Positions 10,108 to 17,071 of a DNA stretch of 18,196 nt are shown one piece after another (the stretch's first letter is position 1; the number at the start of each line of letters is the position of its first letter). The notes under the pieces are model-generated. The model saw only the letters and a list, made by a program, of their open reading frames with translations, was not told where the DNA came from and searched no databases. This stretch comes from an uncultured Prevotella sp. GTDB taxonomy: Bacteria; Bacteroidota; Bacteroidia; Bacteroidales; Bacteroidaceae. The translations under genes and the position numbers were made by a program. The stretch covers positions 1 to 18,196 of the forward strand of contig CAMOTK010000013.1 in NCBI GenBank assembly GCA_946625715.1, given 5' to 3'.

Positions 10108-11544
10108 TTATACTTTTGGTAAATGGAACTGGAAGTTCTGTTCGAACACTTCCCGTACCGTATTGATTTCCAAGAACTTCGTACTGCCACCAGCACCTAC
10201 GTTGCCGCTCAGATAGGCAATCTTGTCGTCAAGTGCAATATAGCCCTTTTGGCGCAACATGCGCACAGCCGCTAAGAAGAGCCGTTCGCTGCCAATCTGT
10301 TCTTTCTGATAAACGGGCAACACACCGTAGCTCAGCGCCAACAGACGTTGCAGTTTGTCGTCGTAGCAGATAGCCAACACAGGATGTGGACCGCGAAAAG
10401 CGGAAAGCATGCGGGCTGTGACACCGGTCTTCGAGTCTGTGATGATGCCCTTCACGTTGAGTCGTTCTGTAGCCAAGATAGCACTGTGGGCCATAAACTC
10501 GCGGATATCGCAATCGGCCGACATCGGTATCTCCACGCTGCCCAACACGTTGTCGCGCTCGGCTTGCTCGGCAATAGCAGCCATCGTGCGCACAGCCTCA
10601 ACGGGATATTTACCGCTGGCCGTCTCGCCCGAGAGCATCAGGGCGTCGGTGTGCGAATAGATGGCGTTGGCAATATCAGTCACTTCGGCACGTGTAGGAC
10701 GCGGATTGTGAATCATCGTGTGCAACATCTGCGTGGCCACAATCACGGGTTTCTTGGCTTCCATACACTTGCGGATAATCTTCCGCTGAATACCAGGGAT
10801 ACGCTCTATGGGCACCTCAATGCCTAAGTCGCCTCGGGCTATCATGATACCGTAACTGGCGGCGATAATCTCGTCGATATTGTCCACACCTTCCTGGTTC
10901 TCTATCTTCGAGATAATCTTGATGTCGGAATGGTGAGCATCGAGCAGTTCCTGCACGACGTGCACATCGGCAGCAGAGCGCACAAATGAGTGGGCTATGA
11001 AATCGATGTTCTGCTCTATGGCCAACAGTATATTCTTGCGGTCGCGCTCGGTCAGTGCGGGCAGGTCGATATGTACGCCCGGCACGTTGACGCTCTTATG
11101 CGAACCCAGCACACCGTCGTTCATCACCTTTGCCACCACCTGCGGCCCGTTGATGCCCATAATCTCCATATCAAGGGCACCATCGTCGAAGAGCACGTGG
11201 TCGCCCTCATGCACATCGGCGGCAAAGTCATTATACGACAGGTTGATGATGTCGTGAGAGGTGTCCATCTCTGGACGCCCGAAGATTTTCACCACATCGC
11301 CCGTCTTGTATTCTATGGGGGCGTCGCAACTGGTAGTGCGCACCTCAGGTCCTTTGGTATCTATTAGTATGCCGATATGGTTCGACACACTTCTCACGTT
11401 CTTGATAATCTGCCGAATACCGTCCTCAGAAGCATGAGCGGTATTCATGCGCACAACATTCATGCCAGCATCAAACAGCTGGTGAATGAAATCAACATCG
11501 CAACGACGGTCGCTGATGCTGGCCACAATTTTCGTTTGTTTCAT
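10108..11544 (-). CDS. pyk: Pyruvate kinase
   Basis: 478 residues, full length for the family. It converts phosphoenolpyruvate and ADP to pyruvate and ATP, the last step of glycolysis. Visible residues: Arg32 and Asn34 in VVRMNTAHAS, Asp62-Thr63 in IDTKGPEVRT, catalytic Lys213 and metal ligand Glu215 in SKIENQEG, metal ligand Asp239 in ARGDLG, and Thr271 in ATQMLHTMI followed by PRPTRAEVTDIANA. The B domain occupies about 70-160 and the C-terminal allosteric domain about 340-478. The usual Ser of N-x-S-H, a potassium ligand in studied enzymes, is Ala36. The gene starts 10 bases after dapA ends, and I see no promoter between them, so the pair is read from the dapA promoter. Confidence 0.97.
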   Translation of the reverse strand: MKQTKIVASISDRRCDVDFIHQLFDAGMNVVRMNTAHASEDGIRQIIKNVRSVSNHIGILIDTKGPEVRTTSCDAPIEYKTGDVVKIFGRPEMDTSHDIINLSYNDFAADVHEGDHVLFDDGALDMEIMGINGPQVVAKVMNDGVLGSHKSVNVPGVHIDLPALTERDRKNILLAIEQNIDFIAHSFVRSAADVHVVQELLDAHHSDIKIISKIENQEGVDNIDEIIAASYGIMIARGDLGIEVPIERIPGIQRKIIRKCMEAKKPVIVATQMLHTMIHNPRPTRAEVTDIANAIYSHTDALMLSGETASGKYPVEAVRTMAAIAEQAERDNVLGSVEIPMSADCDIREFMAHSAILATERLNVKGIITDSKTGVTARMLSAFRGPHPVLAICYDDKLQRLLALSYGVLPVYQKEQIGSERLFLAAVRMLRQKGYIALDDKIAYLSGNVGAGGSTKFLEINTVREVFEQNFQFHLPKV

Positions 11545-14071: not shown

Positions 14072-14935
14072 ATGAGGCAACTGAAAATCACCAAATCGAT
14101 TACTAACCGAGAGAGTGCCGCTCTCGATAAGTATCTTCAGGAGATTGGCAAAGAAGAGCTAATCAGTGTGGAGGAAGAGGTTGAACTGGCACAGCGCATT
14201 CGCAAGGGCGACCAGAAGGCGCTCGAAAGGCTGACGAAAGCCAACCTCAGATTTGTGGTTTCTGTGGCCAAGCAGTACCAGAACCAGGGACTCACCCTCC
14301 CCGACCTCATCAACGAGGGTAATCTGGGACTGATGAAGGCTGCAGAGAAGTTCGACGAGACGCGAGGCTTCAAGTTCATCAGCTATGCCGTGTGGTGGAT
14401 TCGCCAAAGCATCCTGCAGGCAATCGCCGAACAGAGCCGTATTGTGCGCCTGCCCCTCAACCAGGTGGGCTCGGTCAACAAAATCAACCGGGTGCTCAAC
14501 AAGTTCGAGCAGGAGAATGAGCGCCGGCCGTCAGTGGGCGAAATCAGCGAACAGCTCGACTTGCCCGAGGAAAAGGTCGATGAGGCGATGAGCGTCAACA
14601 CGCGCCACGTGTCGGTCGATGCACCGTTTGCCGAAGGCGACGACAACTCGCTGCTCGACATCATGGTCAACAACGATGCCCCGATGGCCGACAAGCAGCT
14701 CGTCTTAGAGTCGCTTCGCTCCGAAATCAACACGGCATTGCAGATGCTCAACGAGCGCGAGCGCAATGTGGTCGAGGCATTCTTCGGCATCAACCAGCCG
14801 GAGATGACGCTCGAAGAGATTGGCAACAAATACGGACTCACCCGTGAGCGTGTACGGCAGATTAAGGAAAAGGCCATCCGACGCTTGCGCGAGTCGACAA
14901 AAAACAAAATGCTCAAGACATATTTAGGACAATGA
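14072..14935 (+). CDS. rpoD: Primary sigma factor RpoD (Bacteroidetes short sigma-70)
   Basis: 287 residues. Region 1.2 is at about 14-47 ([18 protein letters not shown]), region 2 at about 50-125 ([49 protein letters not shown]), region 3 at about 130-205 and region 4 at about 218-275 with the helix-turn-helix [18 protein letters not shown]. Region 1.1 and the non-conserved insert of proteobacterial RpoD are absent, as is normal for the Bacteroidetes housekeeping sigma, which recognises TTTG/TAnnTTTG promoters. Its own promoter fits that consensus exactly, so autoregulation is likely. The TGA overlaps the next gene's ATG by four bases, which couples translation to the secreted protein downstream. 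Confidence 0.96.
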
Positions 14936-15444
14936 ATTATAAGAACATTTTACTGGCAACGCTTCTTTGCTTCTGTTGCCACCTCACTGCACCGGCTAAG
15001 ATTATCCAGGTGCCTCGTATCTATGCGTTTGGCTTTGCCGCATCCTTCAACGACACCATCGTGCATTTCACCGATGTACACGAGATTGACAATGCGTGGA
15101 TTGACAACAAGACCAATTTCCTTTTAGGTCGCGAGAACTACTCAGCACAGCTGCGTAACTACCTATCGACCAGCGGCATGCCGCATCGCACCTGCATTAT
15201 TGTTTCAAGTCAGAGCAGGGCCGACGTCGAGAAGCAGTACTTGAAGTTCAAGCGCAAATACACGACGTCGAAAGACGGTCTCATCCATTTCGATGTCCGC
15301 TACCTCACACCTGCCGAATTTCGGTTCACCGCAGTCGACATGAGCAGCATGCTCGAACAAGAGGAAGCGCAGGCAGAGAAGCCGAAGAAACCATCAAAGA
15401 AGCCAACAAATCAGGGACAGAAGGGAGCGCCGAGTGGAAAGTAA
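14932..15444 (+). CDS. Secreted protein of unknown function, coupled to rpoD
   Basis: 170 residues. A signal peptide covers about 1-22 (hydrophobic core [11 protein letters not shown], likely cleavage after APA). The mature part (about 23-140) looks like a small alpha/beta domain, with [21 protein letters not shown], a Tyr/Arg-rich segment and [13 protein letters not shown]. The tail from about 150 is Lys, Pro and Gln rich and probably disordered. I do not recognise the family. The ATG overlaps the rpoD stop (ATGA), and the 3' end overlaps the HprK-like gene by 11 bases, so it is locked into this operon. It is too large and too ordinary to be an obvious RiPP precursor, but it is the only secreted product next to the kinase/protease/PqqD block. 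Confidence 0.85.
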
Positions 15445-16312
15445 CTATTTCAACATTGCCGGACTCAACGTCTGCATCAACTTCGAGCCGTCGGAAGTCA
15501 ACAACATGGGCTTGCTCCCATCCTTCCGCGTCTTCACTTGCGACGCCAAACCCGAAACGTTATTCTTCACCCTGACGGTCGACGACAGTTTGCGGCCCCG
15601 CAAAGACCGCAAGCTCGTCCGCAAGTTCGACACCGGCAATGGCGACACGCTGGTCTATCAGCTCGCCGACGGTGGTTACCAATACATCATTCGCGACATC
15701 CACGACCGCGACTGTTGTCTGCTGCAGACCAATCAGGATTTCTCTGACTGTCGCTGTGCACTCAACGGCGACTGGGTGATGCGCTCGTTTGGACTCAACG
15801 ATGCACTGATGCTCATCTATGCCTTTGCTGGCAGTTTCCGTCAGACAATGCTCATCCACGCCTCCTGTATTCGCTACAACGGCTTCGGCTATCCCTTCAT
15901 CGCCAAGAGCGGCACGGGCAAGAGCACCCACTCTTCCCTGTGGCTGAAGCATATCGAAGGGGCCGAGCTCATGAACGACGACAACCCTGTGGTGCGCATC
16001 ATCGATGGCGAAGCCTTCATCTATGGTTCACCCTGGAGTGGCAAGACGCCTTGCTATCGGAACATCAGTGCCCGCTTAGGCGCTGTGACTCGCATCGACC
16101 GGGCGCCAGCCAACAGCATCGAGCGCCTCGCGCCCGTTCAGGCTTTCGCATCCTTGTTGCCCGCCTGTTCCTCAATGAAGTGGGACTCCGTTATCTACAA
16201 CAACCTGTGCGACGCCATCACGCGCCTCATCGAGACCGTTCCCGTCTATACCTTACATTGTTTACCCGACGAAGAAGCCGCCCTGCTATGCCACAAGACC
16301 ATATCCAGATAA
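15434..16312 (+). CDS. HprK-like (PEPCK-fold) P-loop kinase
   Basis: 292 residues from a GTG start. The N-terminal half (about 1-120) is beta-rich and of unknown role. The C-terminal half is the HPr-kinase/PEP-carboxykinase-like domain: His142 in the LIHASCIRYNG strand, a P-loop AKSGTGKST at 157-165 (Ala replaces the first Gly), the Asp pair 182-183 in LMNDDNPVV, and FIYGSPWSGKT (195-205), similar to the loop seen in peptide-kinase relatives. True HprK phosphorylates Ser46 of HPr; relatives in lasso-peptide clusters phosphorylate a peptide serine. No HPr gene is nearby. The GTG is preferred over the Met at residue 25 because the residues between, [16 protein letters not shown], look like the conserved family N-terminus. 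It overlaps the previous gene by 11 bases. Confidence 0.85.
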   Translation: MESNYFNIAGLNVCINFEPSEVNNMGLLPSFRVFTCDAKPETLFFTLTVDDSLRPRKDRKLVRKFDTGNGDTLVYQLADGGYQYIIRDIHDRDCCLLQTNQDFSDCRCALNGDWVMRSFGLNDALMLIYAFAGSFRQTMLIHASCIRYNGFGYPFIAKSGTGKSTHSSLWLKHIEGAELMNDDNPVVRIIDGEAFIYGSPWSGKTPCYRNISARLGAVTRIDRAPANSIERLAPVQAFASLLPACSSMKWDSVIYNNLCDAITRLIETVPVYTLHCLPDEEAALLCHKTISR

Positions 16313-16317
16313 AGACG

Positions 16318-16788
16318 ATGCAGATGGCCAACGCCCTGCTGTTGCCAGAAGTGGTGCGCATGCTCAACGAGGGCCATACCGTCACGCTCCCATTGCGGGG
16401 CTACAGCATGCGACCGTTTCTTGAGAACGGACGCGACAAGGCACTGCTCAAAGCCATCGGTCAGCCACAGGTGGGCGATGCCGTACTCGCAGAGATTACC
16501 GAAGGCCATTTCGTGCTCCACCGCATCATCCGCATCGAAGGCGAACACGTCACCCTTCGTGGCGATGGAAACTTAGGCGAAGAACACTGTCGGATTGCTG
16601 ACGTGAAGGCCAAAGCCATCGGCTTCTATCGCAAGGGCCGCAACAAGCTCGACGCCACCGACGGTCGTAAGTGGAAGGTCTATTCCTGGTGGTGGACGCG
16701 CCTCTACCCCATTCGCCGCTACCTGCTGTTCCTGTTGCATCCGCACATTCCCCGCAGGTTCCGACCCCAACAATCATCAAGCAACTAA
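16318..16788 (+). CDS. S24/S26 signal-peptidase-like protease, Ser/His type
   Basis: 156 residues from the ATG at 16318 (a second ATG two codons later is possible; the frame is open far upstream but that overlaps the kinase gene). The catalytic Ser box is RGYSMRPFLENGRD with Ser30. The second box is FVLHRII with His68, where bacterial signal peptidase I has Lys. The third is TLRGDGN with Asp83, matching the T-K-G-D-x-N of archaeal, SipW and ER-type signal peptidases. There is no N-terminal membrane anchor, and only a short hydrophobic YLLFLLH near the basic C-terminus. It is therefore probably a soluble or peripheral processing protease and not the general signal peptidase. It lies 5 bases after the HprK-like gene and 13 before the PqqD-like gene. 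Confidence 0.85.
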   Translation: MQMANALLLPEVVRMLNEGHTVTLPLRGYSMRPFLENGRDKALLKAIGQPQVGDAVLAEITEGHFVLHRIIRIEGEHVTLRGDGNLGEEHCRIADVKAKAIGFYRKGRNKLDATDGRKWKVYSWWWTRLYPIRRYLLFLLHPHIPRRFRPQQSSSN

Positions 16789-16801
16789 AAAAACATAAGA
16801 T

Positions 16802-17071
16802 ATGAAAACAAAGAAAGGATTCCGTCTTCGCACCGTTTGTGGCGAAAACATCATTGTTGCCGAAGGCATTGAGAACATCGATTTCTCTAAGATTATCAGT
16901 ATGAACGAGTCGTCGGCCTATCTGTGGAGCAAGGTTCAGGACCAATCGTTCACCATCGAACAGCTTGTGGCCCTGCTTCGCGAAGAGTATGAGGTCGATG
17001 AAGCCACCGCCACTGCCGATGTGAAGGCATTGGTCGCCAAGTGGCAGGAAGCCGGCATCATTGAGGAATAA
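16802..17071 (+). CDS. PqqD-family protein (RRE-like peptide-binding fold)
   Basis: 89 residues, the usual PqqD size. The pattern of the family is clear: a beta hairpin (FRLRTVCGENIIVAEG), then ISMNESSAYLWSKVQD followed by FTIEQLVALLREEYEVD, and a last helix ADVKALVAKWQEAGII. In PQQ and RiPP pathways PqqD domains bind the leader peptide of a precursor and present it to modifying enzymes. No precursor, radical-SAM PqqE partner or PQQ gene is visible. It ends the operon that begins with rpoD, 13 bases after the S26-like gene, and faces ispE with 10 bases between. An A-rich sequence precedes the ATG, as is usual for Bacteroidetes start sites. Confidence 0.92.
   Translation: MKTKKGFRLRTVCGENIIVAEGIENIDFSKIISMNESSAYLWSKVQDQSFTIEQLVALLREEYEVDEATATADVKALVAKWQEAGIIEE

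Follow-up and report, generated by a model that had tools for sequence, protein, structure and literature searches.

The locus examined here raises the question of what a kinase, a peptidase, and a peptide-recognition protein do together when no substrate for them is seen nearby. The window, that is, the whole stretch of 18,196 nucleotides that was analyzed, comes from an uncultured Prevotella sp. (contig CAMOTK010000013.1; contig C13 of a 1.87-Mb assembly that is 65% complete). In it, three adjacent genes encode an HprK-like kinase, a serine peptidase, and a PqqD-like RRE (recognition element of a ribosomally synthesized and post-translationally modified peptide, or RiPP). The start of the kinase gene overlaps a 170-aa open reading frame (ORF) by 11 bases, and gaps of 5 and 13 bases separate kinase from peptidase and peptidase from PqqD gene; an earlier note on this DNA had described the GTG overlap and both gaps, and its coordinates were exactly reproduced. 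When the window ORFs were read, no cyclase, radical-SAM enzyme, or transporter was found beside the trio, no nucleoside triphosphate (NTP) transferase or MsbA-like transporter adjoined it, and the window contained no small YxxP ORF, in agreement with that note, which had seen no cyclase, radical-SAM enzyme, transporter, or short precursor. We find that the trio matches, part for part, the LppK/LppS/LppB enzyme core of a known RiPP family. From its sequence and by analogy, there is good reason to think that it is a peptide-maturation machine that works like that core, with one enzyme set probably serving many unlinked precursors in trans.

The system used for comparison makes linear polyphosphorylated peptides (LPPs), a RiPP family described by Popov et al. 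(Nat Commun, May 2026; PMC13381572), passages of which are the source of what follows. The cluster lppA/K/B/S/D/N from Paenibacillus alginolyticus includes an HprK-like kinase (LppK), an RRE (LppB), a signal-peptidase-like protein (LppS), an NTP transferase (LppN), and the MsbA-like LppD, and LPP clusters hold 1–3 precursors with the leader YxxPxVLxHQxIxFETxxS. LppK phosphorylates core Ser3, which lies 18 residues downstream of the leader Tyr (position -16), and LppS cuts after residue -1, a cut for which LppB is required in vitro. LPPs are described there as restricted to Bacillota and patchy, and the term "bacteroid" is absent from the main text of the article. Passages of PMC12710340, PMC10352776, and PMC7470986 mention no such trio, preprints and most subscription journals being outside the scope of this comparison. 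The trio shares with the LPP system an HprK-like kinase adjoining a discrete RRE and a signal-peptidase-I-like peptidase, with no cyclase seen, the fold matches of the peptidase being weak here. It differs in its Bacteroidales host and in a window that has no precursor in cis and no transporter or NTP transferase beside the trio.

The kinase is assigned by its predicted fold. Its family scores were weak, that of HprK_rel_A (3.8e-3) lying far under the cut-off. Cassettes of the HPr-rel-A and SynChlorMet types (TIGR04352 and TIGR04249) pair an HprK-related kinase with a PqqD-like protein. The trio differs from them in scoring far below the curated cut-offs: the kinase reached 16.4 of 200 bits with TIGR04352 (HprK-related kinase A) and 11.9 of 125 bits with TIGR04249 (SynChlorMet/ScmC), and the NCBIfam scan of the trio touched the ScmD model at 0.07 only. 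When the structure model of the kinase (pLDDT 97) was searched with Foldseek, the best matches were phosphoenolpyruvate carboxykinase (PEPCK, 2e-7) and HPr kinase (3e-5), so that the modeled fold confirms an HprK/PEPCK-type protein and bears out the HprK-like kinase of the earlier note. The P-loop and NDD residues are invariant or nearly invariant in 62 aligned sequences. Close relatives of the kinase are labeled PF27840.1, for which the Pfam copy used on the window gave no match; the kinase family may have gained a Pfam model of its own.

Family scores of the peptidase were also weak, both under cut-off (Peptidase_S24, 9e-4; signal peptidase I, 2.5e-3), and its structure model (pLDDT 88.5) gave weak fold matches, of which a LexA-type protein came first (9e-4) and the signal peptidase SpsB lower (1e-2). 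Its residues S30, H68, and D83 do not vary among 55 aligned sequences and parallel S29, H68, and D93 of LppS, each of which is needed in that enzyme, as substitution abolished cleavage (passages of PMC13381572). The protein, called S26-type in the earlier note, is placed here as S24/S26-type.

The PqqD-like protein proposed in the same note is matched by PF05402 at 2.3e-17, over the Pfam cut-off. A profile built from 57 RRE sequences and searched against solved sequences (E ≤ 0.1) matched just four, TfuB1 (6jx3, 1.3e-8), TbiB1 (5v1u, 1.2e-4), PbaB1 (9x90, 3e-4), and LppB (9x8z, 5e-3). Residues N35 and D73 are conserved in at least 90% of the 57 sequences and align with LppB N33 and D70, which hold the leader at the Pro and the Tyr of its YxxP motif; in the profile alignment, PbaB1, whose target is a WxxP leader, has Gln at the position of the conserved Asp D73 (both binding modes are from passages of PMC13381572). 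The residues needed for a YxxP leader are thus present in this RRE as predicted contacts.

The relatives of this RRE bear on a reading in which the trio is what remains of ordinary lasso-peptide tailoring (B1, kinase, and protease) after loss of the cyclase. The NCBIfam models closest to the PqqD protein are those of lasso chaperones (1e-6 and 2e-5, neither reaching its cut-off), its closest solved chain is TfuB1, and paeninodin-like phosphorylated lasso peptides likewise involve an HprK-like kinase and a discrete B1 RRE. However, paeninodin-like systems differ from the trio, beside which no cyclase or B2 peptidase was seen, and the Gln of PbaB1 stands against a conserved Asp here that goes with Tyr leaders. 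Neither a lasso cyclase (asparagine-synthetase-like) nor a B2 transglutaminase-type peptidase was seen on reading the window ORFs, family scans covering only rpoD, the 170-aa ORF, and the trio, and the rest of the genome not being searched. In most of the relatives inspected, the three genes stay side by side and their active sites are conserved, and the candidate precursors described below are many and scattered. We consider a lasso remnant very unlikely.

The kinase was found in 97 of 121 sampled genomes of the Bacteroidales family (3 of the 97 by weak matches only) and in 43 of 295 genomes of the order sample, many of the 43 being weak. Its partners accompany it. Among 80 named loci, whose counts are biased to close relatives because they are the best 80 of 589 confirmed matches, the peptidase is present in 80, PqqD in 75, and the three genes lie close together in 74. 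In 70 family loci picked by hand from the kinase-match list, mostly away from contig ends, the corresponding numbers are 60 for the peptidase, 65 for PqqD, and 55 for the complete trio. The nearest named relatives are Prevotella and Prevotellaceae records. The neighborhood comparison suggested in the earlier note therefore shows that the three genes do travel together. The trio kinase is widespread in one family, which differs from the patchy occurrence ascribed to LPPs. A fold common to HPr kinase and PEPCK would also suit a metabolic or regulatory HPr-type kinase with unrelated neighbors. The three-gene neighborhood conserved in 74 of the 80 named loci and the parallel to the experimentally tested LPP set (passages of PMC13381572) both argue against this, and we regard it as the least probable of the explanations weighed.

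Candidate precursors were looked for in the 121 family genomes with the whole-genome DNA pattern ATG-AAR-AAN-NNN-TAY-NNN-NNN-CC, which corresponds to MK[K/N]xYxxP. There were 404 matches, compared with 126 for a control with the Pro one residue closer and 82 for a reversed one. With three genomes that have weak kinase matches set aside, the 94 kinase-positive genomes contained 338 matches (mean 3.60) and the 24 kinase-negative genomes 60 (mean 2.50). Translation of 62 of the 338 kinase-positive matches (one per genome for the loci returned, 40 hand-chosen, and three of the window's genome) gave 56 ORFs of 35–75 aa, nearly all with one leader type. From the 60 kinase-negative matches, 29 were translated (left out were one match of G003 and the repeated, identical transposase matches of G008 and G033). 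Ten of these were in the size range, and only the five of G063 were precursor-like, the others being mostly transposase starts, starts of longer genes, and random short frames. Because the translated kinase-negative matches are mostly such spurious frames, raw pattern counts were not accepted alone as proof.

After removal of six translations outside the size range and one duplicate leader, 55 distinct peptides remained. Five were dropped for the test of neighboring genes (the antisense-looking frames L135, L202, and L213, as well as L155 and L161), leaving 50, and six near-duplicates or siblings were removed for the precursor profile, leaving 44. The candidates are unannotated peptides of 40–80 aa that start with MKKxYxxP, usually have a Ser or Thr 18–20 residues after the Tyr, and have an acidic, Trp-containing end. 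In the 55 peptides, a count that retains the five dropped later, Ser is found at Y+18 to Y+20 in 42 and Ser or Thr in 49, compared with a mean of 14.6 and a maximum of 26 for Ser when tails were shuffled 1000 times. Positions Y+15, Y+16, and Y+17 are mostly hydrophobic (73%, 91%, and 82%), and 43 of the 55 have a Trp within the last 22 residues. A second set of 44 automatic picks from 57 profile-found loci, in which about eleven spurious-looking picks were retained and which takes in picks from kinase-negative genomes (G040, G063, and G107 among them), has Ser at Y+18 to Y+20 in 31 (shuffles: mean 11.4, maximum 20); this set is not independent because it was found with the profile of the first and shares some members with it. 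When 44 precursors were searched against Pfam and NCBIfam, none scored better than E = 0.027, and the few that touched families at 0.027–0.09 were unconvincing.

The window's genome (G000) contains two candidate precursors, MKKQYVNPSMVVAQVNTELPLATS... at C33:3745 and MKKIYSTPTTSVFKIETVSMIAATT... at C127:5395. A third profile match (C109, E = 0.011) corresponds to no convincing ORF, and further precursors may be missing because the assembly is 65% complete. The candidate precursors of these genomes share with LPP precursors the YxxP leader and the approximate position of the Ser, which is 18 residues after the Tyr in LPPs and mostly 18–20 here. They differ in that they are encoded in trans and singly at scattered sites, are often many, and are in many cases paired with genes for secreted-type or lipoprotein-like products.

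This pairing was seen for most of the 50 precursor genes analyzed. In 33 cases, the precursor gene follows, at a distance of -4 to 152 bases, a gene for a protein with a common C-terminal tail (consensus YDLxGRRV...KGxYIxNGKKVxxK); in comparison loci, this tail was found in 6 of 848 ORFs with a length of 200 aa or more. Another 10 are just ahead of a lipoprotein-like gene, as judged by a rough text pattern, and 7 have neither type of partner. The C33 precursor of the window's genome overlaps its upstream gene by ATGA. In G088, a YxxP ORF is present in all 17 loci read, and a lipoprotein-like gene of ∼520–580 aa directly follows the precursor in 12 of the 14 loci with flanks; of the remaining loci, L362 has a lipoprotein-like gene cut by the locus end, and in L355 a gene of the leucine-rich repeat (LRR) type precedes the precursor. 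No named family was found for the precursor-bearing genes except for the LRR match. The tail is common to many secreted-type proteins of these genomes (e.g. L138, L204, and L223), and Pfam and NCBIfam gave no match worth naming for it as a known domain. A tail profile matches the ends of the solved structures 4kca, 7jvi, and, weakly, 8bbl; the partner tail resembles the ends of solved secreted-type enzymes.

The precursors and the kinase occur together. Within the family, the precursor profile (E ≤ 0.1) matches 9 of 9 kinase-positive and 5 of 24 kinase-negative genomes. Of the nine, G000 and G078 had supplied rows to the profile, and the seven others, all same-genus genomes, had not. Kinase-positive genomes hold 1 to 48 matches each (48 in G088 and 18 in G078), and precursor matches were found in 0 of 11 genomes of three genera that have no kinase match in the sample (g3, g4, and g8). 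A kinase-profile search of the 24 kinase-negative genomes returned only short partial matches, in 3 of them. Outside the family, where kinase-positive was defined as a kinase match at E ≤ 1e-30 in the order sample and where no genome had supplied profile rows, the profile matches 9 of 17 kinase-positive and 0 of 18 kinase-negative genomes (Fisher p = 3e-4), or 6 of 17 at E ≤ 0.01 (p = 0.008), p-values that are indicative and overstate independence because the genomes are related. In G135, G276, and G320, the kinase and a profile match are no more than 11 kb apart.

Besides this relatedness, several observations weigh against a trio that acts in trans on the scattered peptides. Raw pattern counts separate kinase-positive from kinase-negative genomes poorly (p = 0.068). 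Five genomes without a strong kinase match carry precursor matches (G040, G063, G075, G096, and G107), and G063 has nine of them without a full kinase or PqqD in a 94%-complete assembly; the genera of all five include other sampled genomes that do have the kinase, and a PqqD match was found in G040. Outside the family, 8 of the 17 kinase-positive genomes are without a precursor match, and three of the nine matching genomes are weak, with a best E above 0.04. The RRE profile rates TfuB1, an actinobacterial lasso RRE, above LppB. The LPP leader stretch VLxHQxIxFET, a further difference from LPPs, was not seen in the scattered peptides, the YxxP and the approximate Ser distance being what the two have in common. 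Finally, an ATP-binding cassette (ABC) gene lies within 4.5 kb of 0 of 24 rpoD-linked kinases.

Some of these points would suit an explanation in which each genome has a single dedicated peptide or protein for the trio to mature, as in a classical RiPP whose precursor is encoded at a distance, the scattered YxxP peptides being part of something else. The nine precursor matches of G063, where the trio was not detected, are consistent with it, as is the rarity of precursors near rpoD-type trios: a filter applied to the 80 named loci left 14 precursor candidates spread over 10 loci, and by eye only those of L290 and L293 seem genuine. Against it are the co-occurrence of kinase and precursors inside and outside the family, a leader bearing the motif that such RREs bind (passages of PMC13381572), a Ser or Thr near the LPP distance, and trios that have the same peptide class in cis. 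A small YxxP ORF shares a 20-kb locus with the full trio in L049, L082, L089, L090, L096, L097, and L099, and is near incomplete sets (kinase with PqqD, or kinase with peptidase) in L077, L080, L084, L085, L086, L093, L095, L098, and L101. A single dedicated substrate is therefore unlikely, if less so than the lasso or HPr-type explanations.

Under the preferred explanation of maturation in trans, PqqD would bind the YxxP at the N terminus of a small precursor, as its residues suggest. By analogy with LPP biochemistry, the kinase would then phosphorylate a Ser or Thr ∼19 residues after the Tyr, and the peptidase, with its conserved Ser, His, and Asp, would cut just before the phosphorylated residue. 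The freed product would be an acidic, often Trp-containing peptide of ∼20–45 residues. Most of the precursor genes analyzed are paired, operon-like, with a gene for a secreted-type or lipoprotein-like product. Since the matching precursors lie dispersed over the genome and occur along with the kinase, it is probable that a single enzyme set serves many of them. The joint function of the trio in the window's organism is one that we infer by this analogy. The earlier note had read the locus as a conserved peptide-maturation module with a substrate possibly encoded elsewhere, and this central reading is supported because the trio is kept together, equals a proven RiPP core, and has co-occurring candidate substrates in trans.

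The features of the window are listed in the table. A scan of the window with Rfam gave no RNA element at gathering scores. Membership of a defense system was considered and rejected, as PADLOC gave no match at E ≤ 0.01 for any of the three proteins.

Features of the trio locus and its neighbors, in window positions
Feature	Position	Strand	Basis or remark
rpoD-type sigma factor gene (context)	14072..14935	+	family scans
170-aa ORF, hydrophobic stretch at N terminus (context)	14932..15444	+	judged outside the module
HprK/PEPCK-fold kinase, 292 aa, LppK-like, GTG start	15434..16312	+	fold match, conserved residues
Kinase P-loop AKSGTGKST	15902-15928	+	alignment
S24/S26-type serine peptidase, 156 aa, LppS-like, ATG start	16318..16788	+	weak family and fold matches, invariant triad
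Peptidase putative catalytic S30, H68, D83	16405-16407, 16519-16521, 16564-16566	+	alignment
PqqD-like RRE, 89 aa, LppB-like, ATG start	16802..17071	+	Pfam
PqqD predicted YxxP-leader contacts N35, D73	16904-16906, 17018-17020	+	alignment with LppB
ispE	downstream of PqqD gene	-	

The link to rpoD, to which the earlier note took the block to be locked, is real in the window and not general. With a distance limit of 4.5 kb for rpoD and ABC neighbors, an rpoD-type gene is upstream in 53 of the 80 named loci (65 of which have the 170-aa ORF) and near 24 of the 70 family loci; other kinase loci adjoin capsule-type genes, and still others an ABC exporter or a radical-SAM enzyme. An ABC gene is found in 20 of the family loci, including 14 of the 55 complete trios, and an NTP transferase in 17. 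Based on these counts, kinase loci have several layouts. In the first, as in the window, the trio is rpoD-linked without a transporter. The second adds an ABC exporter (PF00664/PF00005) and sometimes an NTP transferase (PF14907), one representative of each having been scanned, and the genes for an NTP transferase and an ABC exporter near some relatives of the trio are another likeness to LPP clusters. In the third, PqqD, an NTP transferase, and the kinase are beside capsule-type genes, the peptidase not adjoining, a layout that parallels the capsule-linked LPP clusters of Bacillota. It is found in L077, L080, L084, L086, and L093–L095, most with a YxxP peptide, and its neighbors include sugar-transferase and Poly_export genes (cluster representatives) and, by reading only, a Wzc-like gene.

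The fourth layout (L096), with a radical-SAM enzyme and repeated precursors, seems to join an LPP-type set to radical-SAM chemistry. L096 and L097–L099 have the gene order PqqD-kinase-peptidase, and L096 contains four copies of a 130–150-aa precursor, MVMKNTYVKPEMQVEEFLAN..., with ORF starts at 11194+, 12871-, 16491+, and 18535-. Radical-SAM genes share loci L096–L099, the L098 member being identified by PF04055.

The NTP transferase PF14907 scores over its cut-off in 11 of 11 kinase-positive genomes, compared with 1 of 13 kinase-negative ones, and in 12 loci around PF14907 genes no kinase, PqqD, or peptidase of the trio families was found. The window's genome has a solitary PF14907 nucleotidyltransferase at G000:C75:5089-5847 (L386).

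The 170-aa ORF was considered as a fourth component and rejected; we judge it to be outside the module because all 24 genomes tested have it, including 13 without a strong kinase match. Four loci of this ORF were read in genomes without a strong kinase match; rpoD adjoins it in two, L382 and L385, and no rpoD was seen in L383 or L384. In the same-genus relatives G071 and G103, no trio adjoins rpoD and the 170-aa ORF (L375 and L376), and the kinase is encoded elsewhere in the genome. In many relatives, the 170-aa ORF and the kinase are separated by a clostripain-family protease gene (PF03415; cluster c9, 13 loci, e.g. L038:8277-9533).

These results extend an LPP-like enzyme trio beyond Bacillota, with a kinase in 97 of 121 genomes of one Bacteroidales family that is partly fixed behind rpoD. 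Should a single trio act on many unlinked precursors, the usual rule that RiPP precursors lie beside their enzymes would fail here, and genome mining in cis only would miss these precursors, none of 44 scanned having scored better than E = 0.027 in Pfam or NCBIfam. The chances seem evenly divided as to whether this is a general phosphorylation and trimming system of the Prevotella type that acts in trans on an unannotated multigene precursor family of up to dozens of members per genome, many with a secreted-type protein or lipoprotein of their own encoded alongside, as a shared line for pairs of protein and phosphopeptide and not as a natural-product cluster. The pairing of precursors with secreted-type genes suggests an extracellular or cell-surface role in these rumen and gut bacteria.

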